From: Opitutaceae bacterium
GTDB lineage: Bacteria; Verrucomicrobiota; Verrucomicrobiia; Opitutales; Opitutaceae
Direction: 5' to 3'
DNA length: 64,000 bases
NCBI GenBank assembly: GCA_023269585.1
Contig: JAHFTC010000004.1
Span: 27,100 to 91,099, forward strand
Shown in pieces: positions 14,148 through 58,066 of this stretch; within the stretch, counting starts at the first letter, position 1; each line of letters begins with the position of its first letter. The position numbers were made by a program, and so were the translations under genes. Under the pieces are notes generated by a model, which did no database searches, was not told the DNA's origin, and saw only the letters and a program-made list of their open reading frames with translations.

Positions 14148-16331
14148 ATGGACTCTCTCCCCGGTGAAACTCCTCCCGCCCATCCTGCCAATCACTTGGA
14201 GGGGCAGCAGTCGCCGTATCTGCTCCAGCACCTGCACAACCCGGTGGACTGGTACCCGTGGGGCGACGAGGCGTTCGCGAAGGCGCGGGCCGAGAACAAG
14301 CTCCTCTTCCTCTCGGTGGGCTACTCGACCTGCCATTGGTGTCACGTGATGGAGCGCGAGTGTTTCGAGGACGAGGAAGTCGCAGCGCTGCTCAACGCGG
14401 CCTTCGTCTGCGTGAAAGTCGACCGCGAGGAACGGCCCGAGGTCGATCGGCTCTACATGAGCTTTCTGCAAGCGAGCACGGGCGGCGGCGGCTGGCCGAT
14501 GTCGGTGTGGCTCACTCCGGAATTGAAACCGTTTTTTGCGGGCACGTATTTCCCGCCCGAGGACCGCTGGGGCCGGCCGGGCTTGAAGAGTGTGGCCGCG
14601 CGAATCGTCGCGGTGTGGGAGAGTGAACCGGAGCGCATCCGGGCGCATGCCGATCAGGTGCTAACCACCCTCGCGGAGACGGGGCCGGCCGCGGCGGCGG
14701 ACACGACCCTCCAGACCGGGACGTGGCGCGACGCCGCGGTGCGCGGGCTCGAGGGCGCCTACGACCGCGAGAACGGCGGCTTCGGCGGTGCGCCGAAATT
14801 CCCCAACGTGGGCTTCCTCGCGCTGTTGTTCGACTACCAGGCACAGGGGAACGATCCCGGACTGCGCCGCACGGCGCGCGAGATGGCGCTCGGCACGTTG
14901 CGCAAGATCGTCGACAGCTCGCTGCGCGACCACATCGGCGGCGGTTTCCATCGGTACGCCGTGGACCCCCATTGGCGGCTGCCGCACTTCGAGAAGATGC
15001 TCAACGACCAGGCGCTGCTCACCGAGGCCTGCGTCGAGGCGTGGCTCATCTCCGGCGAGCCGGTCTTCCGGAGGGCGGCGGAGGAGTGTCTAAACTACTT
15101 GGACACTCAGATGCGCGACTCGGGCGGGGCGTTCCGGTCCGCCGAGGATGCCGACAGCCCGGTTGGGTCGGCTGGCGGTCCCCGCCACGAGGGCGTGTTC
15201 TATGTGTGGACCGAGGAAGAAGTGCGCGCAGCGCTTGGCGGGAAGTCCGCAGCAGTCTTTGCCCACGCCTACGGCCTCCGGCCGGAGGGCAATCTCGACG
15301 GCGATCCGACCGGCGAGTTTGCGGGGCGGAACCTGCCTTACCGTGCGCACGCGGCGGTCGAGACGGCACGGGCGCTCGGCCTCGAGCTCGCGGAAGTGCA
15401 GGCGATCCTCGATGCCGCGCTCGTGCGTCTGCGCGAGGTCCGGGCGCAGCGGCCGCCGCCGGATTGCGACGACAAGATCCTCTGCGCGTGGAACGGGCTG
15501 GCGCTCTCGGCCTTCGCGCGGGCGGCGTTTCATTTCGGCGACCGACGGTGGTACGAGGTGGCGGTGCGCCAGGCGGAGTTTCTCCGGGCCAACCTCCACG
15601 ACGAGCAGACCGGCCGGCTGTTCCGGACGTGGCGCGGCGGACGGAAGGGACCGGAAGGATACGCGGAGGACTACAGCTGCCTGATCCGGGGGCTGCTCGA
15701 CCTTTTCGAGTGCTGTCAGGAAAGCCGCTGGCTCGAATGGGCCGAGGCGTTGCAGTCCAAGCAGGATGAGTTGTTCCGCGACGAGGCGGGCGGGTATTTC
15801 GCCAGCGTGGCCGGCGACCCGCACGTGCTGGTTCGGATGAAGAGCGCCCACGACGGGGCGGAGCCCGCGGCGAGCTCGGTCGCGGTGCAGAGCAAGGCGC
15901 GGCTTGCGGGGCTGCTGCACCGTAACGAGTGGCTGGCGTCGGCACGCGGCGATGCCTTGGCGTTTGCCGGCACGCTGCAGGAATCGCCGTTGGCGCTGCC
16001 GCAGATGCTCACGTCGCTTGCGTGGCTCGAGCGGGCACCGAGGCAGGTGATCATCGTCGGCCAGCCGGGCGAGCCGACGACCGAGACGCTGGTGGCGGAG
16101 TTGCGGCAGCGGCAACGGGCCTGCCTGAGTCTGATCGTGCTGCACGACGGCAACCGGGCGTTTTTCGAACGGCGCGACGCGTTCTTCAGGAACCTGCCTG
16201 CCCGGATCATCGGGCAGCCGAAGGCGTTCCTGTGCGAGAACTTCACCTGCCAACTGCCGGTGGGCAGCGTGCCCGAGTTCGCGGCGCTGTTGGATGCGTC
16301 ATCGGTTTTTGGTGGCGGTCGAGCGGGCTGA
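14148..16331 (+). CDS. DUF255/thioredoxin-domain protein (YyaL/SSP411 family)
   Basis: [57 protein letters not shown] is diagnostic. Confidence 0.92.
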
Positions 16332-17669: not shown

Positions 17670-18365
17670 TTACTTCCGTGCCACGTGGAGGGCGACGATG
17701 CCGAAGGTCATCGGGCGCGCCTGCACGGCGGCGAAACCGGCGCGAAGAATCTCGGCCGACATCTCCGGGCGGGCGGGGAACTGCGCGATCGAGCCGCCGA
17801 GGTATTCGTAGGCGCCCTTGTCGCCCGTGAGGGCGGAGGCGAACCACGGCAGGATGCAGCGCAGGTAGAAATAGTAGAGCGGCGCGAACCAACGGTACGG
17901 CTGCGAGAACTCGAGGACGAAGAGCGAGCCGCCGGGCCGGAGCACGCGGCGCATTTCACCTAACGCCTTGTGGCGGTCAGCGACGTTGCGCAGGCCGAAG
18001 GAGATTGTGAGCACGTCGAACGCGGCGTCGGGCAGCGGCAAGGCCATGGCGTCGCCTTGGCGGAATTCGATCTTCGCGTAACGGGGCGAGCGCGCCTTTT
18101 TCGCCACCGCTTCGTCGAGCATGGGCTGGCAGAAATCCATGCCGGTGATCCGCACGGCCTCGGGCAAGCCGCGGGCGAGCGCGAAGGCGACATCGCCGCT
18201 CCCGGTGGCGAGATCGAGCACAGCCTGCGGCTGGCAACGCGCCACGGCGCGGCGTAGGCGCCAACGCCACCACACGTCGGTGCCGCCGCTCAGGAGGCGG
18301 TTGGCGAGATCGTAACGGCGGGCGATGCGGCCGAACATCGACTGGACTGCGGCGGGATCGGGCAC
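17670..18365 (-). CDS. ubiE: demethylmenaquinone/ubiquinone methyltransferase UbiE/MenG (GTG start proposed)
   Basis: MFGRIARRYDLANRLLSGGTDVWWR, VLDLATGSGDVAF, GMDFCQPML, ISFGLRNVADRHKALGEMRRVLRPGG. The annotated longer N-terminus is translated repeat DNA. Confidence 0.9.
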   Translation of the reverse strand: MPDPAAVQSMFGRIARRYDLANRLLSGGTDVWWRWRLRRAVARCQPQAVLDLATGSGDVAFALARGLPEAVRITGMDFCQPMLDEAVAKKARSPRYAKIEFRQGDAMALPLPDAAFDVLTISFGLRNVADRHKALGEMRRVLRPGGSLFVLEFSQPYRWFAPLYYFYLRCILPWFASALTGDKGAYEYLGGSIAQFPARPEMSAEILRAGFAAVQARPMTFGIVALHVARK

Positions 18366-18369
18366 GGGT

Positions 18370-18540
18370 GATTTTCGATTGTGGATTGCCGATTTGCGAT
18401 TGGGCGGACGGCGGGAAATTGCGGAATGCGGAATGCGGATAGCGGAATGCGGATTGCGGAGTGCGGAGTGGGCGGACGGTGGGAAACTGCGGAAGGGGGA
18501 TAGCGGAATGCGGATTGCGGATTGCGGAGTGCGGATTGGC
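18370..18540 (+). repeat. three consecutive heptamer arrays (GATTNNN-type), locus A
   Basis: Phased 7-mers: gattttc gattgtg gattgcc gatttgc gattgg; aattgcg gaatgcg gaatgcg gatagcg gaatgcg gattgcg gagtgcg gagtgg; aactgcg gaagggg gatagcg gaatgcg gattgcg gattgcg gagtgcg gattgg; the first two are followed by gcggacggYggga. Confidence 0.95.
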
Positions 18541-18578: not shown

Positions 18579-18687
18579 GCGCGGAATTGAGAGCGGTGAG
18601 GGACTGTGGCGTGAGGTTCCATCGCTGGAATCTTCAGCGGTGCTTCGCTGCGCGGAATTGAGAGCGGTGAGGAACTGTGGCGTGAGG
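18579..18687. repeat. 38-bp direct repeat, two copies 71 bp apart
   Basis: gcgcggaattgagagcggtgagggactgtggcgtgagg (18579-18616) and gcgcggaattgagagcggtgaggaactgtggcgtgagg (18650-18687), one mismatch. Confidence 0.9.
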
Positions 18688-18827: not shown

Positions 18828-18905
18828 CGTTGCGCGTTCCGGGCGAAAGGGAAAGAGGGGCCCTGAGTGGCGATTCCGGTTGCTCCGGCCGGCGAACGAA
18901 CGGCA

Positions 18906-18949
18906 AAGACGCAAAACCGTGTCGCGATCGCGACACGGTTTTGCGTCTT
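18906..18949. repeat. perfect 44-bp palindrome
   Basis: aagacgcaaaaccgtgtcgcgatcgcgacacggttttgcgtctt is identical to its reverse complement. Confidence 0.95.
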
Positions 18950-19133
18950 CGGTGCCCGGTGATGGTGACGCCAGGCCGCAGATCAGCCGTGTCGACACCG
19001 CGGATGGTCGCTCGTCGAGGGACGAAAACCGGGCCGTCGCTCGCGTGATCCGGGCCGCTCGGCGGCGCGGGTTCCGCCTCGGTAGTCTGGTACGCGCCGC
19101 TCGTCCGCGTGTCGTTCGATGACTGAACACAGA

Positions 19134-20747
<1,614 letters not shown>

Positions 20748-25692: not shown

Positions 25693-25724
25693 TTTCCAAT
25701 TTTGGATTGCCGATTTGCGACTGG
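25691..25724 (+). repeat. left terminal inverted repeat (heptamer array)
   Basis: gatttcc aattttg gattgcc gatttgc gactgg. Confidence 0.9.
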
Positions 25725-25735
25725 AGGCAACCGCC

Positions 25736-26113: not shown

Positions 26114-26122
26114 GCGCCTGCG

Positions 26123-26156
26123 CCAATCGCAAATCGGCAATCCAAAATCGCAAATC
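26123..26156 (-). repeat. right terminal inverted repeat (heptamer array)
   Basis: On the minus strand: gatttgc gattttg gattgcc gatttgc gattgg. Confidence 0.9.
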
Positions 26157-35535: not shown

Positions 35536-37494
35536 TTACGGCTGAGGGGCGGGCGGCGTGGGAGCGGCCGGCGGGCTGGCGGGGCCATTCTCCGGCTGCG
35601 GCGGCGGCGGTCCGGGATCGCGTGCGCCGAAGGTGAGGGCGAACACGGAGTCGAGGAAGGGCTGAGTGGCGTGGAAGAGCGTGTTGAACTCGGCCGAGCC
35701 GACGAGGAGCGAGGTGGCGCCGTCCCGCTCGCCGAGCAGCAGCGTCGATACCGAAGGTTGTTCGCCCTCGCCGGCGCCGCTGAGGGCGATGGAGACCTCG
35801 AGCTGGTACGCCCACGGCTTGGGCTGGCCGTCGATCTCGGGGGTGGCCGCGAAACCGTCGCGGACGAAGTTCCGGGCGCGGAGGCTGCGGAGCTCGCCGA
35901 GGAGCTGCTTCACGGCCGTCTGCACGGTGGCCGGCTCGTCCGTGAGGGCTGTATCCCAAGTCTGGTTGGCGGCGAGGGTGCGGGTGAAGACGGTGGAAGT
36001 GTCGGCGAGGCGGCGGAGGGTGAGGCCGGTGATGCTCGCGCCCGGTGGGAGTTCCCGCAGGGTGCGCAGACGGAAGTGACGGGCGGCGATGGGCAGCTCG
36101 TCGAGGACCGAGGCGCGCACGCGGTAGACAAACTGATTGTCGGCCAGGCGCGCGTAGGTGAGCGGACTGGGGGATGCCGGCTCGGTGATCCCGAGCTGCA
36201 GGCTCACGGTGGTGGCGGACGCGGGCGGTTCGGCGGCCACGGTGAGGGTGACCTCGCGTTCAGGCCGGTTGAACCCCCATTTCTCGAGGTCGGCCGGGAA
36301 GGGCGCGTCGCTGTGGAAGGCGACCGCGCGGAGCTGGCCTAGTTGCTCCACCAACCGGGCGACCACCGCGGGATCGGCCGGCTGGGGCGGCGTGGACTCG
36401 GTGCCTTGGCGGGCGAGCACCTGCCAGGCCCCGGTTTCGAGCCGTTGGAGCGAGACCTCGGGTTGGCCGGGGGCGGTGAGGGTGATGGCGGTGAGGCGGT
36501 CCGGTTCGAAGTCGAGCAGGCGGCGGTCGCGCATCTCGCTCTGCGCGTTGCGTAGCGAGTCGATCAGCACATCGGGCACATTGACGGTGAAGACGCCGGC
36601 CCGGTCCTCAAGTTTCGCGTACAACTCGATCTCGGCCCGGCTCACCCCGGGCTTGGCCTCGGCGGGCACCGGCGCGCCGAGCAGCAGGATGGCGCGGCGC
36701 TGGTTGCCTTCGACGGTCAGCCGCAGGGAGGGGTTGTCGAGTCCGGTGACGCGCGGGTCGGCCGCGTCGCGGAACGAGGCGACGCGCAGCTCGCGGATGC
36801 GGCCGAGCGCGAGCTCGACGGCGTTCTTGTCGGCGCGGGTCTGAATGGGCGACTCGAGCATCCAGCGCGGGCCGGTGCGGGCGAGGCGGACGCGGAGGTT
36901 GCCGGGCGCGGGCAGCTGGACGGCGAGGGAGCGGGCCTCGAAGACGGGGATGTCGACGAGAGCGGTGTCGCGGAGTTCGTCGGGTCCGAGGCCGAGGGCG
37001 TCGACGAGGCTGCGGCCGACGACATGGACGCGCACGCCATCGGGATCGAGGACGTAGAGGCGGTTCTGGACGCGGGTGGCGGCGCCGATCTTGAGTTCGA
37101 ACTCCTGGGTGCCGACCCCGAGCCGGAGCACGACGGCGGCGGGATCGAGGCCGTAGTCGGCGAGCTTCTGGCCGGTATCGGCGAGTTTATCGACGGCGAA
37201 GCTGGTTTCGTTCTCGAGCAGGAGCAGTTCGTTGAGCAGGCGGTCCACGGCGTTGCGGTCGGCGGGCCAGTCGTAGGGGGCGCCGAGGAACCAGGTGTCG
37301 CCGCGCTTCTCCAGCTTGAGGGCGGTCGGTGTATCGGAACGGCGGATCTCCAGGCGGTCGAGCGCGGCGATCTGGCGGGGCAGGACCTTGCGGCTGTGCT
37401 CGACGGGCTTGTCGGGCCAGATGACGAACTGGAAGATGACGTAGAAGAGCGCGACGTTCAGGAAGAGGAGAACGAGGGTGACCTTGGTGCGCAT
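35536..37494 (-). CDS. DUF4340 domain-containing protein
   Basis: MRTKVTLVLLFLNVALFYVIFQF TM start, repeated beta domain (DRLEIRRSD...LEKRGDTWFLGAPYDWPADRNAVDRLLNELLLLE); next to a gldG-like gene. Confidence 0.8.
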   Translation of the reverse strand: MRTKVTLVLLFLNVALFYVIFQFVIWPDKPVEHSRKVLPRQIAALDRLEIRRSDTPTALKLEKRGDTWFLGAPYDWPADRNAVDRLLNELLLLENETSFAVDKLADTGQKLADYGLDPAAVVLRLGVGTQEFELKIGAATRVQNRLYVLDPDGVRVHVVGRSLVDALGLGPDELRDTALVDIPVFEARSLAVQLPAPGNLRVRLARTGPRWMLESPIQTRADKNAVELALGRIRELRVASFRDAADPRVTGLDNPSLRLTVEGNQRRAILLLGAPVPAEAKPGVSRAEIELYAKLEDRAGVFTVNVPDVLIDSLRNAQSEMRDRRLLDFEPDRLTAITLTAPGQPEVSLQRLETGAWQVLARQGTESTPPQPADPAVVARLVEQLGQLRAVAFHSDAPFPADLEKWGFNRPEREVTLTVAAEPPASATTVSLQLGITEPASPSPLTYARLADNQFVYRVRASVLDELPIAARHFRLRTLRELPPGASITGLTLRRLADTSTVFTRTLAANQTWDTALTDEPATVQTAVKQLLGELRSLRARNFVRDGFAATPEIDGQPKPWAYQLEVSIALSGAGEGEQPSVSTLLLGERDGATSLLVGSAEFNTLFHATQPFLDSVFALTFGARDPGPPPPQPENGPASPPAAPTPPAPQP

Positions 37495-37506: not shown

Positions 37507-37599
37507 AATTGCGGATTGCGGAATGCGGATTGCGGATTGGCCGGACGACTAGCTGCCGGACTTCACTTGAGACTTGAGCCTTGGCACTTGGAACTTGGC
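37507..37599 (+). repeat. paired heptamer arrays, locus C
   Basis: aattgcg gattgcg gaatgcg gattgcg gattgg (37507-37540), then acttgag acttgag ccttggc acttgga acttggc (37565-37599). Confidence 0.93.
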
Positions 37600-39863: not shown

Positions 39864-39882
39864 CGGTGACCGGTGACGGAGC

Positions 39883-39917
39883 GGTGGACGGTGGACAGTC
39901 GACGGTGGACGGAGGAG
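39883..39917 (+). repeat. heptamer array, GGTGGAC flavour
   Basis: ggtggac ggtggac agtcgac ggtggac ggaggag between permease and ATPase genes. Confidence 0.88.
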
Positions 39918-39973
39918 GGGGCTTGGGGGACGGCGCGGCGGGAAGGATTCGGGCGGTGGCCGCGGAGTCTGAC

Positions 39974-41058: not shown

Positions 41059-42060
41059 TTACTCCTTGCGCAGGGTGACCTCGCCGGCGCGGAAACGCAG
41101 GGTGCGGCCGGCGGCGGTGCGCAACAGGAGCGCGCCCTCGTCGTCGATGCCGCGGGTGGTGCCGGTGTGCGTGTCGTTGCCCTGCACCACGGTGATCTGG
41201 CGGCCGGCGAGAAGATCGTGCCGTTTCCAGAGGTCGGCGATCTCGTCGCGCGGCGGGCGGACGATGAAGTGTGAGTAGGCGGCGAGCACACGCTCGATGA
41301 GCGCGGCCGCGGTGGTGTTGAGGTCCAGTGGTCGGCCGGCCTGGCAGGCGAGGGAAGTGGCGCGCGGCGCGATGTCCCGCGGCCAGGCGGCGGCGGGCGT
41401 GGCGACGTTGAGTCCGAGGCCGAAGACGAGTTCGCGGATCGTGTCGGCGTCGATGCGCGCCTCGGTGAGCATCCCGCCGACCTTGCGCTCGCCGAAATGG
41501 AGGTCATTGGGCCATTTGAGCTGCGGCGCGGTGCCGGTGGTGGTGGCGAGCAGCTCGCAGAGGTTGAGGCCCATCCAGAGCGTGAAGAGGTGCATGCGCT
41601 CGGGCGGGAGCCCGGGGCGGAAGGCGAACGACAGGTAGAGATTGCCGGCGCCGGCGGGGCTGTGCCACACGCGGCCGAAACGACCGCGGCCCCGCGTCTG
41701 CGCGGCGGCGAGCACGATGAACGGCGCCGCGCGGCCCGCCGTGAGCTGGCGGCCGGCCTCATCGTTGGTGCTGTCGACGCTGTCGAGAAACAACAGCGGC
41801 GGCGCCGCCGGCACGAGGGCGCGGATCAGGGCCGGGCTGGGCCCGGCGGGCCGCGCGGTGAGGCGGTAGCCGCGGCTGTGCAACGCCTCGAACGCGAAGC
41901 CCTCCGTCTCCAGACGGTGGAGGTGCGCCCAGACGGCGACCCGGCTCAGGCCGACCACCTTCGCCAGCGCGGCGCCCGAGACGCAGCCTTCGCCGGCGGC
42001 GAGGAACTCGCGCAGCAGGGCGGCTTCGATCTCGGCGGCGGGGCGGGCGGAGCGGGGCAT
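41059..42060 (-). CDS. birA: biotin--[acetyl-CoA-carboxylase] ligase
   Basis: N-terminal HTH; SVDSTNDEAGRQL, AAQTRGRGRFGRVWHSPAGAGNLYLS, LKWPNDLHFGERKVGGML. Confidence 0.93.
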   Translation of the reverse strand: MPRSARPAAEIEAALLREFLAAGEGCVSGAALAKVVGLSRVAVWAHLHRLETEGFAFEALHSRGYRLTARPAGPSPALIRALVPAAPPLLFLDSVDSTNDEAGRQLTAGRAAPFIVLAAAQTRGRGRFGRVWHSPAGAGNLYLSFAFRPGLPPERMHLFTLWMGLNLCELLATTTGTAPQLKWPNDLHFGERKVGGMLTEARIDADTIRELVFGLGLNVATPAAAWPRDIAPRATSLACQAGRPLDLNTTAAALIERVLAAYSHFIVRPPRDEIADLWKRHDLLAGRQITVVQGNDTHTGTTRGIDDEGALLLRTAAGRTLRFRAGEVTLRKE

Positions 42061-42062
42061 GC

Positions 42063-42090
42063 GGTGGACGGTGGTCGGTGGACAGTGGAC
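42063..42090 (+). repeat. heptamer array, GGTGGAC flavour
   Basis: ggtggac ggtggtc ggtggac agtggac, directly upstream of birA. Confidence 0.88.
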
Positions 42091-42142
42091 GGGCGGTGCA
42101 CCTCCCGGCGGGGGGCGGAGCGGTGCAACCGGTTTGTGGCGA

Positions 42143-51070: not shown

Positions 51071-52579
51071 TCACACTGCATGCAGGGCGCTCTTGCTGAC
51101 GGCGAGGGCGGCTTCTTTCACAGCTTCGCTCATCGTGGGATGGGCGTGGATCGTGCGGGCGAGATCTTCGGCGCTGCCGCCGTAGCTCATGTGGGCAACG
51201 ACTTCGCTGATGAGCTCGCCGGCGCCGCGGCCGAGAATCTGCGCGCCGAGCAGGCGGTCGGTCTTGGCGTCGGCGATGAGCTTCACGAAGCCGTCCGCGG
51301 CGTCGGACGCGAGGGCGCGGCCGTTGGCGGCGAAGTTGAATTTTCCGACCTTCACCTCAATGCCCTTGGCCTTGGCGCCATCCTCGCCGAGACCGACGCC
51401 GGCGACTTCCGGATCGGTGTAGACGATGGCGGGCACGACGTCCCAATCGATGTGGCCGGCTTTGCCCGCGATCCATTCGGCGACGGCGACGCCATCCTCC
51501 TCGGCCTTGTGGGCTAGCATTGGCCCGGCCACGACGTCGCCGATGGCCCAGATGCCGGCGGCGCTGGTGCGGAGATGTCCGTCGACCTTGATGCGCTTCT
51601 TGTCGTCGAGTTCGACGCCGGCGGCGGCGAGGTTGAGGCCGTCGGTGAACGGCCGGCGGCCGACGGCGACGAGGACCTTGTCGGCGGGGAATTCGAGTGG
51701 CTTGCCATCCCGTTCGGCGGTGAGGATCGCGGCCGATGCGATTGCGGATTGCGGATTGCGGACTGCGGATTGGTCGGAGGAGGAGGCCGAGCTTTGGGAT
51801 TTGGAATCTGGAGTTTGGAATTTCACTCCCGTGACTTTCGCGCCGGTCTCGATCTTCAGGCCTTGCTTCTGGAGGAGGCGGGTGAAGTTGCGGACGATGT
51901 CGTCGTCGTAGGCGGCGACGATCTTCGGGAGAAACTCGAGCACGGTGACTTCGGCGCCGAGGCGGGCCCAGACGGAGCCGAGTTCGAGGCCGATGGCGCC
52001 GCCGCCGACCACGACGAGCTTTTTGGGCACGGCGGGGAAGGAGATGGCATCGTCGGAAGAGACGACGGTCTGGCCGTCGAATTTCAGGAAGGGCAATTCG
52101 ACTGGTGCGGAGCCGGTCGCGATGACGATGTGGGTCGCCGACAAGTCGGCGACGATTGCGGATTGCGGATCGCGGATTGCGGATTGTTCGGACGAAGTCG
52201 CGGTCACGCGCACAGTCTTCGGGCCGGTGAAGGCCGCCGTGCCGGTGAAGACGGTGATCTTGCGCGCCTTGGCGAGTTGGGCGATGCCGCCGGTGAGCTT
52301 GCCGACGACCGTATCCTTTTTCTTGAGCAACGCGGCGACGTCGATCTCGACGGAGCCGAGTTTGATGCCGCTCTCGGCCGCGTGGTGTTTGGCCCACGCG
52401 AAATGCTCGGTCGCGTTGAGCAACGCTTTCGACGGGATGCAGCCGACGTTGAGGCAGGTGCCGCCGAGGGCGGCGCGCTTGTCGACGAGTGCGACCTTCA
52501 GACCGAGTTGGGCGGCGCGGAACGCGCACACGTAGCCGCCGGGGCCGGCACCGAGGATGAGGACGTCGAAGGAGGACAT
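51071..52579 (-). CDS. lpdA: dihydrolipoyl dehydrogenase
   Basis: LILGAGPGGYVCAFRAAQLG, GGTCLNVGCIPSKALL, VVVGGGAIGLELGSVWARLG, HAHPTMSEAVKEAA. Contains two in-frame heptamer-array insertions. Confidence 0.95.
   Translation of the reverse strand: MSSFDVLILGAGPGGYVCAFRAAQLGLKVALVDKRAALGGTCLNVGCIPSKALLNATEHFAWAKHHAAESGIKLGSVEIDVAALLKKKDTVVGKLTGGIAQLAKARKITVFTGTAAFTGPKTVRVTATSSEQSAIRDPQSAIVADLSATHIVIATGSAPVELPFLKFDGQTVVSSDDAISFPAVPKKLVVVGGGAIGLELGSVWARLGAEVTVLEFLPKIVAAYDDDIVRNFTRLLQKQGLKIETGAKVTGVKFQTPDSKSQSSASSSDQSAVRNPQSAIASAAILTAERDGKPLEFPADKVLVAVGRRPFTDGLNLAAAGVELDDKKRIKVDGHLRTSAAGIWAIGDVVAGPMLAHKAEEDGVAVAEWIAGKAGHIDWDVVPAIVYTDPEVAGVGLGEDGAKAKGIEVKVGKFNFAANGRALASDAADGFVKLIADAKTDRLLGAQILGRGAGELISEVVAHMSYGGSAEDLARTIHAHPTMSEAVKEAALAVSKSALHAV
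51740..51820 (+). repeat. paired heptamer arrays inside lpdA, locus D
   Basis: gattgcg gattgcg gattgcg gactgcg gattgg (51740-51773), then tttggga tttggaa tctggag tttggaa (51793-51820); encodes FQTPDSKSQSSASSSDQSAVRNPQSAI. Confidence 0.93.
52154..52188 (+). repeat. heptamer array inside lpdA, locus E
   Basis: gattgcg gattgcg gatcgcg gattgcg gattgtt; encodes [12 protein letters not shown]. Confidence 0.93.
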
Positions 52580-52717: not shown

Positions 52718-53989
52718 CTAGACGCCCAGCAGGAGGCGGGCGGGATCTTCGATGGCCTGTTTGATCTTCACGAGGAAGGTCACGGCTTCCTTGCCGTCGA
52801 CGAGGCGGTGATCGTAGCTGAGCGCCAGGTACATCATGGGGCGGATGACGACCTGGCCGTTGAGGGCGATCGGGCGGTCGTTGATGGCGTGCATGCCGAG
52901 GATGCCGCACTGCGGGGGATTGAGGATCGGCGTGGAGAGCAACGAACCGAAGGTGCCGCCGTTGGTGATCGTGAAGACGCCTCCGGTGAGATCGTCGAGG
53001 GCGATCTTGCCCTCGCGGGCCTTCACCGCGTACGCGGCGATGTCCTTTTCGATCTCGGCGAGACTCTTCGTGTCGCAGTCGCGGAGCACGGGGACCATCA
53101 GTCCGCGATCGGTGGAGACAGCGACGCCGACGTCGAAGAAGCTGTTCTGGACAATAGTGTCCCCGTCGAGGCTGGCGTTGACGGCGGGGACTTCGCGCAG
53201 CGCGTGCACGGCGGCCTTCACGAAGAGCGACATGAAACCGAGCTTCACGCCGTGGCGCTTGGTGAAGTCGTCCTGGTAGCGGGCGCGGAGGTCGCGCACG
53301 GCGGACATGTCCACCTCGTTGAACGTGGTGAGCATGGCGGTCTGGTTCTTCACCTGGACGAGGCGCTCGGCGATCTTGGCGCGCAAGGGAGTCATCTTGC
53401 GACGCGTCTGGCGGGCCGAGGATTGCGGATCGCGGATTGCGGATTGCGGATTGGACGGCGCGATCTCCGATTTTGGATTTTCGATCTTCGATTGGGCGGA
53501 CGCGGGCGCGGCGGTGGGGAGCGGAGCAGGAGCCGGTACGGCCGGCTTCTCGGCGGCGGCGAGCATGTCGCCCTTGGTGACGCGGCCGGCTTTGCCGGTG
53601 CCGGGGACGGTGGCGGGATCGATCTTGGTTTCCTCGGCGAGGCGGCGGACGGCTGGTGAAACCGGAGATGGGAGACCGGAGACCGGAGAGACGGAAGTCG
53701 GAACGGAGGTCGGCGGAGCGGCGGGAGTTTCCGGTTTCCGGTCTCCGCTTTCCGGTTTCGCGTCGATGGTGGCGACGACGGCGCCGATCTTCACCTCAGT
53801 GCCTTCGGCGATGGTGAGCGTGATCACGCCGTCGGCTTCGGCGGTGCCTTCGGAGGTGATCTTGTCGGTCTCCAACTCGAAGAGCGCCTGGCCTTTCTTC
53901 ACGGTGGCGCCGTTGGCGACGTGCCATTTCGCGAGGATGCCGGAGGCGATGGATTCACCGAGGGGCGGGATTTTGACTGGGAGAGACAT
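52718..53989 (-). CDS. sucB: 2-oxoglutarate dehydrogenase E2, dihydrolipoyl succinyltransferase
   Basis: Lipoyl domain [21 protein letters not shown]3-binding domain [28 protein letters not shown], catalytic [28 protein letters not shown]...[14 protein letters not shown]. Confidence 0.95.
53421..53496 (+). repeat. paired heptamer arrays inside sucB, locus F
   Basis: gattgcg gatcgcg gattgcg gattgcg gattgg (53421-53454) and gatctcc gattttg gattttc gatcttc gattgg (53462-53495). Confidence 0.93.
53658..53761. repeat. inverted pair of heptamer arrays inside the sucB linker
   Basis: gaaaccggagatgggagaccggagaccgg (53658-53686) matches the reverse complement of 53731-53759 at 25/29; right array gtttccg gtttccg gtctccg ctttccg gtttcgc. 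Confidence 0.88.
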
Positions 53990-54062: not shown

Positions 54063-54276
54063 ACCGCTAATGGACGCTAATCGACGCTAATGCGGAGGGG
54101 AACAGGCGGAGAGTTCGGAGTGATGAACCACTAATGCACACTAATGGACACTAATTCGGAAGGGCGGAGGCGGCGGATGAGGGGACCGCTAATGGACGCT
54201 GATCGACGCTAATTCGGAAGGAGTCGGAAACTCGGAGGAGGGAACCACTAAGGCACACTAATGAACACTAATTCGG
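54063..54276 (+). repeat. four period-10 arrays (CRCTAATGGA)3, spaced about 60 bp
   Basis: Units begin at 54063, 54127, 54185 and 54244: ACCRCTAATGNACRCTRATNGACRCTAATNCGG. Confidence 0.93.
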
Positions 54277-54350
54277 CGAGGCGCGAGGGGGCGTGTGCCT
54301 TAGCGGTCCCCATGGATCGTGGGCGGCAGTGGTGAAGTTCAGTGGTATTC

Positions 54351-54385
54351 GGAAATCGAAAATCGGAAATCCAAAATTGAGAATG
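54351..54385 (+). repeat. heptamer array, GGAAATC/GAAAATC flavour
   Basis: ggaaatc gaaaatc ggaaatc caaaatt gagaatg, abutting the sucA stop codon. Confidence 0.8.
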
Positions 54386-54386
54386 C

Positions 54387-57125
54387 TCAGAGGGTGAAGG
54401 CCTGCTGGAGGAGTGCGGCCTGCTCGAGTTTGTGGAGGGCGAGGGCGCCGACGGCGGGACTGGCGGAGGCGTCGCGGCCCGCGTAGACGGGCTTGCGGCC
54501 GAAGATCGCCTCGAGTTGCGGCGCGATGAACGTCCATGCGCCCATGTTCTGCGACTCGTCCTGGCACCAGACCAGTTTGGCTTTCGCGTACTGGGCGGCG
54601 AGCTGGACGAGGCGCTCGGTGTGGAGCGGATACAGCTGCTCGACGCGGACGATCGCGGTGCCGGTGGCGCCGCGCTTCGTGCGCTGGTCGACGAGGTCGT
54701 AGTAGACCTTGCCGGAGCAGAGGATCACGCGGTCGGCCTGCGCGGGCGCGGCCGGGTCGTCGATGATTTCCTGGAACTGGCCGGTGGTTAGCTCGTCGAG
54801 GTGGGAGATGGCGGCGGGATTGCGCAGGAGGCTCTTCGGCGACATGACGACGAGCGGCTTCCGGAAGTCGCGCTTCATCTGGCGGCGCAGGGCGTGGAAG
54901 ATCTGTGCGGGCGTGGTGAGGTTGCAGACCTGGATGTTGTTTTCGGCGCAGAGCTGGAGGAACCGTTCGAGCCGCGCGGAGGAGTGCTCGGGCCCCTGGC
55001 CTTCGTAGCCATGGGGCAGGAGCATCACGAGGCCGCTGTGGCGTTGCCACTTGGATTCGGCGGAGACGATGAACTGGTCGATGATGCTCTGGGCGCCGTT
55101 GCCGAAATCGCCGAACTGGGCCTCCCAGATGCAGAGCAGTTTCGGGAAATCGAGCGAGTAGCCGTAGTCGAAGCCGAGCACGGCCGCCTCGGAGAGCGAG
55201 GAGTTGTAGACGCAGAACTGCGCCTGGCCGGGCGCGAGGTTCTTGAGCGGCGAGAACTTCTCGTTGGTCTCGAGGTCGTTGAGCACGCAGTGGCGCTGGC
55301 TGAAGGTGCCGCGCTCGACATCCTGGCCGGAGAGGCGCACGGGAATGTTCTCGAGGAGCAAGGTGGCGAACGCCAGCGACTCGCCGGTGGCCCAGTCGAT
55401 TGGGTGGTTCTCCGTGAGGGATTTGGCGCGGGTGTCGAGCAGCCGCCGGATCTTCGGGTTCGGGCGGAAGGTCTCGGGCAGCGTGGTGAGGCCGCGCACG
55501 GCCTTTTCGAGCAGTCCGCGCGAGACGGCGGTGGGCGCCGGCGCGAACGAATAGGGCGGCTGGAAACGGCCGGTGGAGCCGGCGAGCTTGGCCTTGGCAT
55601 CGGCCTTGTCCTGCGCGGCCTTCTTGACCTTCGCGAGCGCCTCCTCGAGACCGGCGAGGTACTCGTTCTTCATCGCATCGGCCTCGGCCTGGGTGAGCAC
55701 GCCGGCGGCGACGAGTTTGCGGCTGTAGAGTTCGGAGATCGGCGGGTGCTCGGCAATCTTGCGGTAGAGCACGGGTTGGGTGAAGGCGGGCTCGTCGGCC
55801 TCGTTATGGCCGTGGCGACGGTAGCAATACATGTCGATCACCACATCGCGACCGAACTGCTGGCGGAACTCGAGGGCGAGCTCGGCGACCATGCAGACGT
55901 GTTCGGGGTGGTCGCCGTTCACGTGGAAGATCGGCGCCTCGATCATCTTGGCGATGTCGGTGCAATAGCGGCTGGAACGCGCCTCGGTCGGGTTGGTGGT
56001 GAAGCCGATCTGGTTGTTGATGACGACATGCACTGTGCCGCCGGTGCGGTAGCCGGGAAGCTGGGAGAAGTTGAGCGTCTCGGCCACGATGCCCTGGCCG
56101 GCGAAGGCGGCGTCGCCGTGGAGCAGGAGCGGGACGACCTTCTTGCGGTGCGGGATGTCGCCGAGCAGGCGCTGGCGGGCCCGGGCCTTGCCCTGCACGA
56201 CGGGATCGACGGCCTCGAGGTGCGAGGGGTTGGCGGCCAGGCGCAGGCCGACGGTGGCGCCGCCGGTGGTCGTGACCTCGGTGTCGTAACCGAGATGGTA
56301 CTTCACGTCGCCGTCGCCGGCCACGGTGTCGGGCAGATAGTTCTCGGAGAACTCCTCGAACATGAACTCGTAGCTCTTGCGGAAGATGCCGGCGAGCACG
56401 GTGAGGCGGCCGCGGTGGGCCATGCCCATGACGATCTCCTTCACGCCGAGGGCGGGGGAGAACTCCACGAGGGTGTCGAGCAGCGGGATGAGGGTCTCGC
56501 CGCCCTCGAGGGCGAAGCGTTTCTGGCCGAGGAAACGGGTGTGGAGGAAGCGCTCGAATGTCTCCGCCTTGTGGAGGCGCCGGAGGATGCGCAGCTGCTG
56601 CGCGCGCTCGAACGACGGCTGGTTGAAGACCGGCTCCATGCGCGACTGCAGCCAGCGGCGCACGTCGGTGTCCTGGATGTGGATATACTCGACGCCGACG
56701 TGGCCGCAGTACGTGCGGGCGAGGTTGGCGACGAGGTCGCGCAGCTTCATCGAGCCGCCGGAGAGGTAGTGGCCGACGTTGAACGGCCGCTCGAGGTCAT
56801 CCTCGCCAAGGCCGAACTCGGTCAACGACAGGCGCGGCGAAGGCGGCGGCGGCGGCGCCAGTGGATCGAGGTGGGCTTGGTGGTGGCCGATCGAGCGGTA
56901 GTGGAAGATGAGGCTGTCGACGCGCGCCTGCTTCTTCTCGGCGAGCGCGGCGTCGGTGTCACCCGGGGCGGCGAGGAGCGCGGCGGAGCCGCCATTGGCG
57001 GCGAGGGTGAAGCCCTCGAAGAAGGCGCGCCAGTGGGCGTCGACGGCGCCGGGATTGTCGAGCCAGCGCTGGTAGTATTCGTCGATGAGGTCGGCGTTGA
57101 ACGGGGTGGCGAACGAGGTGCTCAT
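54387..57125 (-). CDS. sucA: 2-oxoglutarate dehydrogenase E1 component
   Basis: FGMAHRGRLTVLAGIF-type MGMAHRGRLTVLAG, GDVKYHLGYDTEV, LAANPSHLEAVDPVVQGKARARQ, LLPHGYEGQGPEHSSARLERFLQL. Confidence 0.96.
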   Translation of the reverse strand: MSTSFATPFNADLIDEYYQRWLDNPGAVDAHWRAFFEGFTLAANGGSAALLAAPGDTDAALAEKKQARVDSLIFHYRSIGHHQAHLDPLAPPPPPSPRLSLTEFGLGEDDLERPFNVGHYLSGGSMKLRDLVANLARTYCGHVGVEYIHIQDTDVRRWLQSRMEPVFNQPSFERAQQLRILRRLHKAETFERFLHTRFLGQKRFALEGGETLIPLLDTLVEFSPALGVKEIVMGMAHRGRLTVLAGIFRKSYEFMFEEFSENYLPDTVAGDGDVKYHLGYDTEVTTTGGATVGLRLAANPSHLEAVDPVVQGKARARQRLLGDIPHRKKVVPLLLHGDAAFAGQGIVAETLNFSQLPGYRTGGTVHVVINNQIGFTTNPTEARSSRYCTDIAKMIEAPIFHVNGDHPEHVCMVAELALEFRQQFGRDVVIDMYCYRRHGHNEADEPAFTQPVLYRKIAEHPPISELYSRKLVAAGVLTQAEADAMKNEYLAGLEEALAKVKKAAQDKADAKAKLAGSTGRFQPPYSFAPAPTAVSRGLLEKAVRGLTTLPETFRPNPKIRRLLDTRAKSLTENHPIDWATGESLAFATLLLENIPVRLSGQDVERGTFSQRHCVLNDLETNEKFSPLKNLAPGQAQFCVYNSSLSEAAVLGFDYGYSLDFPKLLCIWEAQFGDFGNGAQSIIDQFIVSAESKWQRHSGLVMLLPHGYEGQGPEHSSARLERFLQLCAENNIQVCNLTTPAQIFHALRRQMKRDFRKPLVVMSPKSLLRNPAAISHLDELTTGQFQEIIDDPAAPAQADRVILCSGKVYYDLVDQRTKRGATGTAIVRVEQLYPLHTERLVQLAAQYAKAKLVWCQDESQNMGAWTFIAPQLEAIFGRKPVYAGRDASASPAVGALALHKLEQAALLQQAFTL

Positions 57126-57859: not shown

Positions 57860-57869
57860 CCGGTGGGGC

Positions 57870-57904
57870 GGTGGACGGTGGACTGTGGACGGTGGCCGGT
57901 TGAC
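57870..57904 (+). repeat. heptamer array, GGTGGAC flavour
   Basis: ggtggac ggtggac tgtggac ggtggcc ggttgac just after the SUI1 gene. Confidence 0.88.
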
Positions 57905-58066
57905 GGAGGGCGGGGCCGGCTGAGCGTCACACACTCCGCAGGGCAGTCGGCTGGGGGCGTGCCGGTGGTCTTCCGGATTCTCCCGTCTGGAGGGGAGAGG
58001 GAAATCGGCAACCGGTAAACGGAGACGAAAGACGGAAGCGAGGAAGCTTCGATGTGTGCAACCGCC

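Follow-up and report, generated by a model that had tools for sequence, protein, structure and literature searches.

Bounded arrays of a seven-nucleotide repeat set flush against codons in the codirectional gene spacers of an uncultured Opitutaceae bacterium

Three arrays of seven-nucleotide repeats follow one another at 18370-18540 of the window, i.e., the whole stretch of 64,000 nucleotides analyzed here. A preliminary description of this DNA took them for copies of a defined unit with a conserved recognition end, not the outcome of simple slippage, which raises the question of what such arrays are and how they come to stand where they do. The source genome (G000) is a MAG of an uncultured member of the Opitutaceae (Verrucomicrobiota), 4.47 Mb in 216 contigs.

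The arrays (locus A) occupy the spacer between a ubiE/menG-type methyltransferase gene (17670..18365, minus strand; Pfam PF01209, E 1e-55) and an AAA-family gene (19134-20747, minus strand). The GTG start codon of menG (18365-18363), placed by means of the orthologues L070-L103, stands four bases from the first heptamer element. All three arrays were present on the plus strand; the first (18370..18403), however, proved by its sequence to be a five-unit element of fixed order, GATTTTC-GATTGTG-GATTGCC-GATTTGC-GATTGG (the GATTNNN element), start-flush and antisense to menG, and not a run of GATTGCG. It is followed on the same strand by a first junction, gGCGGACGGCGGGAA / GCGGACGGCGGGAA (18402..18416), an eight-unit array of the GATTGCG family (18417..18472), a second junction, gggCGGACGGTGGGAAA (18470..18486), and a third array, again of the GATTGCG family (18487..18540), whose final GATTGGC lacks CGGACG. 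A common gcggacggYgggaa junction was confirmed after the first two arrays, at 18402-18418 and 18471-18486. The proposed duplication of whole units was borne out as well: TRF returned a tandem 68-nt unit of junction plus array (18401-18539, plus strand) in 2.0 copies, with 85% matches and 0 indels, so that array and junction were indeed duplicated together in tandem. In L070, from a 91%-identical relative, the menG locus carries an array too, short but built of the same word and likewise placed flush with the start codon; orthologue comparison showed that of the relative L071 to be without an array.

Outside the heptamer arrays, the spacer of locus A holds GCGGAATTGAGAGCGGTGAGG followed by a near-repeat of ACTGTGGCGTGAGG twice, 71 nt apart (18581-18601 and 18652-18672). 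A long palindrome-like stretch was also seen in this spacer around GCAAAGACGCAAAACCGTGTCGCGATCGCGACACGGTTTTGCGTCTTCGGTGCC (18885-18955), and a spacer of G003 is filled by GCAAAG hairpin words that resemble those in this stretch.

A 19-nt pattern, (GATTGCG)2.7, gave 196 overlapping matches in G000 at up to two mismatches and 0 when reversed, and runs of the word occur at some hundred or more sites across the genome. Within the window, GATTGCGGATTGCGG was seen 23 times against 0.42 expected (up to two mismatches). Two congeners yielded 65 and 96 repeat matches and other Opitutaceae 0 to 67; of 289 genomes sampled from the phylum, 75 had at least one match, high counts being rare, and the reversed control also scored in some of the 289, where it read as another heptamer (GTTAGGC). 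Arrays were analyzed in about 700 kb of G000 (about 16% of the genome), made up of a discovery part (the window, 20 stretches and a few short loci) and a held-out part (stretches on other contigs). Array densities are biased, because both parts were picked partly for holding arrays; placement is not obviously so. Genes were mapped with a purpose-written codon-usage caller, and gene starts rest on this simple caller.

In the sampled DNA, 77 arrays were detected. Units numbered three in 2 arrays, four in 26, five in 42 and six to ten in 6, so that 68/76 have four or five. The unit number of GATTGCG is thus bounded, with a sharp limit at five, while no such limit applies to the GGACGGT family of the same spacers, which is open-ended. 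For the GATTNNN element, a search with its last 27 nt at up to three mismatches found 21 genome copies, against 0 for the reversed control. The sharply limited array length, which is unlike slippage, the 21 fixed-order copies and the local duplication of array plus junction speak for the earlier view of a defined unit, which is thus supported in part.

In the window, GATTGGNCGGACG occurs exactly at 18398, 37535 and 53490 and in one-mismatch forms at 18466, 51768 and 52182, against a chance expectation of about 0.02 exact copies in 64 kb, both strands, as estimated from composition. At up to two mismatches 15 were seen and 14.6 expected, and the lack of enrichment confines the signal to exact, array-linked copies. 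The “array” reported at 53495 belongs, like the first element of locus A, to the GATTTTC family (53459-53502). When copies were aligned with their flanks, conservation past GATTGG was present: a relaxed edge, (A/G)N?CGGA, stands 3' of 22/76 arrays versus 22/959 control GGANTG sites outside arrays (odds ratio 17, p 3e-15), with 9/295 at intergenic controls. In the held-out sample it was found at 9/33 arrays and in two congeners at 2/23. What survives is this relaxed edge; the exact (N)CGGACG follows 3/76 arrays, which rules it out as a universal recognition end. Since the relaxed form is itself missing from 54/76 arrays and is scarce in the congeners, the CGGA edge is at best a species-level hitch-hiker and no demonstrated recognition end. 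Past the edge, conservation on the 3' side is nowhere above about 0.2 bits per position; on the 5' side a purine (A/G) precedes ATTGCGG, with no conservation farther out. The sharper boundary of the arrays is biological, i.e., a 5' edge that abuts start or stop codons.

Among 53 intergenic arrays, 51 lie in codirectional spacers, one in a convergent and one in a divergent spacer; the held-out arrays alone gave 24, 1 and 1. All period-7 segments of the discovery set, of any family, were distributed 63/3/3 over codirectional, convergent and divergent spacers, compared with 41/10/18 expected from intergenic bases. Of these 53, 40 have their 5' edge no more than 20 nt from a start codon (31 arrays) or a stop codon (9 arrays); the 3' edge comes this close in 1/53. 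Flush 5' edges were seen in 38 of the 51 codirectional arrays, where random placement within their own spacers predicts 8.1. Antisense arrays outnumber sense arrays 42 to 9 in codirectional spacers, the mRNA of the former reading (TCCGCAA)n, and 18 to 4 within coding sequence. A small check on congener arrays gave 8 codirectional, 3 convergent and 9 in coding sequence, with 8/11 intergenic arrays flush. Some arrays are paired: of the nine spacers in which a sense array is stop-flush, six have an antisense array flush with the start as well, against a background of 36/243 (p 4e-4), and inverted doublets occur in 6/39 array-bearing codirectional spacers. Convergent array pairs were also found inside some ORFs and at spacer ends, e.g., at 14307/14383 and 14761/14894 of L196.

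Elsewhere in the window, GATTNNN elements occupy two 43-nt spacers, at 25698..25724 (plus strand; spacer 25693-25735), in sense and about six bases past the stop codon, and at 26123..26149 (minus strand; spacer 26114-26156), antisense and about seven bases before the start codon. A five-unit GATTGCG array (37507..37541, plus strand) and the start codon of gene 35536-37494, on the minus strand, are 12 nt apart; the array's edge, CCGGACG, runs to 37547, and an ACTTGG-family segment (37564..37598, plus strand) shares its spacer. Two GATTGCG arrays are in-frame inserts in lpd (51071-52579, minus strand), namely 51740..51774, which encodes DQSAVRNPQSAI, and 52154..52188, which encodes 12 residues (both plus strand); both are absent from the congener G001, and in G002 these loops contain other inserts. 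In the dehydrogenase E2 gene (52718-53989, minus strand), the linker holds a further GATTGCG array (53421..53455, plus strand), encoding 12 residues, and the GATTTTC-family segment at 53459..53502 (plus strand), which ends in GATTGGGCGGACG and encodes 10; the E2 linker array is common to G000 and G001, with diverged flanks. Another GATTTTC-type segment (54343..54380, minus strand) lies 6 nt past the stop codon of the E1 gene (54387-57125), and GGACGGT-family segments were found at 39879..39921 (plus strand), 42060-42093 and 57862-57907. Rfam returned two tRNAs only for the window. The spacer adjoining the 2-oxoglutarate dehydrogenase E1 gene also contains, at 54065-54276, a higher-order tandem repeat of 59 nt with decamer arrays (CACTAATGGA / CGCTAATGGA); the congeners lack it.

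Between congeners, the spacer content of a given site is not merely mutated but exchanged for other heptamer families. In the spacer after 37494, the flanking codons could be aligned in three congeners and the heptamer content differed in each; many spacers over two further 20-kb stretches were likewise replaced, and the orthologous spacers of G001 and G002 carry other heptamer words. Clean empty sites were seen in the orthologue comparisons within lpd only and in none of the spacers. Another dispersed-looking spacer family is an intercistronic hairpin of CACAGAGGGCACAGAG ... CTCTGTGCCCTCTGTG words (L041 4131-4306 and its L212 orthologue), which is kept between G000 and G001 and replaced in G002. 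A further sequence, GCGCATTGGACTGACG, is identical at eight places in G000 (C16, C53, C92, C93, C149, C169, C188 and C205) and is likely part of another repeat or insertion sequence.

At equal stringency, G000 yielded 104 segments of period 7 versus 2, 1, 27 and 9 of periods 4, 5, 6 and 8, counts for periods above 8 being less strictly comparable because fewer positions are compared in the same span. The period-6 segments are all coding, those of period 7 intergenic in 69/104 cases, and intergenic DNA of G000 shows a lag-7 excess. The heptamer families, among them GGATTGC/GGAATGC, GGACGGT (broad in length, about 30-170 nt), GGAAACC, GGAAATC, GATTTTC and CAAGTNC, tend in mRNA sense to be C-rich and to have one TCC or ACC in each unit. 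A genome of another class (G168, 45% GC) gave 38 period-7 segments versus 0-1 for other periods, counts that are not independent because two of its stretches, L220 and L222, are near-duplicates; its heptamer words differ (CCAAGGT, AACCTTG, AATCCGC). GATTGCG arrays were also noted in G168 at several near-identical loci (L220 7418-7826, L222 7934-8342, L221 16464-16850 and L224), often inside an ORF with flanks reading YWIEGNADCGLGIAETGKEL, and these are possibly a repeated gene family with array inserts.

In mRNA sense, codirectional spacers have a C/G ratio of 1.36 (TCC 2046, GGA 800) and convergent spacers one of 0.97-0.99. The codirectional excess of C over G is strongest before starts (2.1) and amounts to 1.5-1.7 at 20-80 nt upstream, versus 1.1-1.2 in divergent spacers. 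In the last 20 nt before start codons, GGA was counted 20 times and TCC 215 times (227 codirectional spacers from sampled G000 stretches); the strong depletion of GGA, the Shine-Dalgarno core, suggests that the genus initiates mostly without SD.

When start-flush arrays were turned round in silico, the start region was predicted to fold more stably in 30/30 cases (-31.9 kcal/mol, compared with -14.7 in the native orientation), and start accessibility dropped to 0.42 from 0.61. The orientation bias is readily explained, since reversal adds, on average, 17 kcal/mol of structure to the start region. Shuffling the array instead changed little (-15.8 kcal/mol, p 0.08), so that composition, not the exact array sequence, matters for start folding; the flip test mostly restates composition. 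Paired stop-flush and start-flush arrays could, according to such models, make a stop-to-start hairpin, the predicted duplex of one pair (L041 2715-2900) reaching -51.8 kcal/mol.

We give roughly even odds, a probability of about 0.5, to the reading that each array is a copy of a small cassette that spreads by copying and by local duplication, is tolerated where it lies in operon spacers and protein loops, and is retained in whichever orientation keeps the mRNA unstructured. The cassette, dispersed through the genome, would measure about 35-45 nt and be built of four or five degenerate units of 7 nt, with GG-N-CGGA often coming next. New copies would arise by whole-cassette copying (template switching, gene conversion or the action of some element) and by local duplication, and short 7-nt slippage would add units. 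Selection would retain those least harmful to expression, between operon genes or paired with a complementary stop-flush array, and the C-rich, G-poor (TCCGCAA)n strand in the mRNA would keep the next start codon unpaired. The net role may be mostly that of tolerated spacer DNA giving an unstructured leader, and not that of a dedicated regulator. The sharp length, the 21-copy fixed-order element and the duplicated junction argue for cassette copying rather than slippage alone; copying is suggested by shape and dispersal only, as neither a transposase nor a template nor a target-site duplication came to light. A possible but doubtful alternative is simple-sequence slippage that prefers a 7-nt step and acts anywhere, becoming visible only where it is tolerated, with edges that reflect shared spacer composition. 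It would fit the preference for period 7 in both G000 and a distant verrucomicrobial genome with other words, as well as the broad lengths of the GGACGGT family, and a polymerase-slippage account of bacterial heptamers has already been proposed (cited in PMC4692102). It fits poorly, however, with arrays that stop sharply at five units, with a fixed-order element that has a different unit at each position and yet is dispersed in 21 copies, with one word common to arrays at many unrelated loci and with an edge enriched 17-fold over controls; convergent spacers, which should tolerate slippage best, hold few arrays.

Convergent gene ends, the neediest of terminators, show no excess of C over G, and Rho terminators were rejected for that reason. 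This also weighs against an operon RNA element, either a rut-like (Rho-loading) tract or a stop-start intercistronic hairpin for translational coupling, a reading that we hold to be rather unlikely in spite of the codirectional-only placement. Codirectional spacers do present, as judged from sequence, C>G tracts in untranslated RNA, and a role for Rho is possible because such tracts in mRNA sense are an accepted hallmark of rut sites (PMC9160355); the descriptors in the same paper use a YC spacing of 9-13 nt, not 7. The hairpin version draws on the excess of complementary stop-flush and start-flush arrays (p 4e-4), but cognate ends pair almost as mismatched ends do (-25.0 versus -24.3; 178 codirectional spacers of G000), and hairpins are real for a subset only. 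Arrays occur in coding sequence too, and in congeners unrelated words replace the spacers. It is quite improbable, in our estimation, that an active system in the phylum writes 7-nt-stepped DNA, in several different words, beside gene ends, whether by templated addition or by the copying of cassettes, and takes the gene boundary or the direction of transcription as its landmark, words changing between species while step, length and placement persist. The least probable account is that a transposase, a RAYT for instance, moves the arrays as a non-autonomous element of MITE or REPIN-like type. Convergent array pairs at spacer ends and inside ORFs, as in L196, resemble terminal inverted repeats, and G000 has 11 Y1_Tnp matches; at the 10 of these loci examined, however, neither an array nor a period-7 segment was present in the available DNA, and a RAYT/REP origin was rejected. 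Most arrays are single-ended and orthologue alignments revealed no target-site duplication, whereas the close relative L071 has an ORF upstream of menG that, from a reading of its sequence, appears Y1_Tnp-like.

The arrays belong to the heptameric (STRR-type) repeat class, as a distinct form with limited unit number and codon-flush placement, and are filed there because a degenerate 7-nt unit, several families per genome and an intergenic bias are held in common. Their tandem degenerate units measure exactly 7 nt, and they occur in many copies and several families, mainly between genes (196 matches; 69/104 intergenic); open-ended copy number is typical of simple-sequence repeats but no strict mark of STRRs. 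The STRR repeats of heterocystous cyanobacteria (Calothrix, Nostoc) are tandem degenerate 7-mers, with several families per genome, mostly intergenic, and degenerate heptamers form a paired stem in the trnL intron of Nostoc. They differ from the GATTGCG arrays in their words and in phylum, and we know of no description of codon-flush placement or a sharp unit number for them. Rickettsia palindromic elements are short repeats inserted in-frame in essential protein genes, as in lpd here, but the GATTGCG units are not palindromic and the arrays are mostly intergenic. ERIC/IRU intercistronic palindromes lie, as these arrays do, between ORFs of one transcript and are foldable in mRNA, whereas the arrays consist of 7-nt words and have no conserved 127-bp sequence. 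Heptamers are over-represented among bacterial SSRs, for which no detailed literature was then available (PMC4692102). The Xanthomonas GGGAATC and Nostoc GGGGA(T/C)T repeats are, like GATTGCG, 7 nt long, intergenic, enriched genome-wide and variable among close relatives, but they form G-quadruplexes from G-rich runs (PMC4692102); the GATTGCG unit has no G tracts of three, lacks the runs of at least three G per unit found in G-quadruplex heptamers, and usually places the C-rich strand in the mRNA. With REPIN and REP-RAYT systems (PMC3116915), the arrays share being short, dispersed, extragenic and sometimes in inverted pairs, but their unit is not a palindromic REP, and they are not linked to Y1_Tnp genes (10 loci examined). 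A literature search with limited terms found no paper on heptamers in Verrucomicrobia or Opitutaceae.

What is new here is the strict placement of seven-letter repeats, the class itself being loosely known in bacteria. Observations of heptameric repeats in bacteria go back decades but came with no mechanism, and the present arrays provide testable rules, i.e., a 7-nt step, a five-unit ceiling, codirectional spacers, a codon-flush edge and one mRNA strand, to which their in-frame use as linkers in 2-oxoacid dehydrogenase enzymes adds a further one. Given that a distant verrucomicrobial genome shares the 7-nt preference with other words, these findings suggest a general process that builds bacterial operon spacers.
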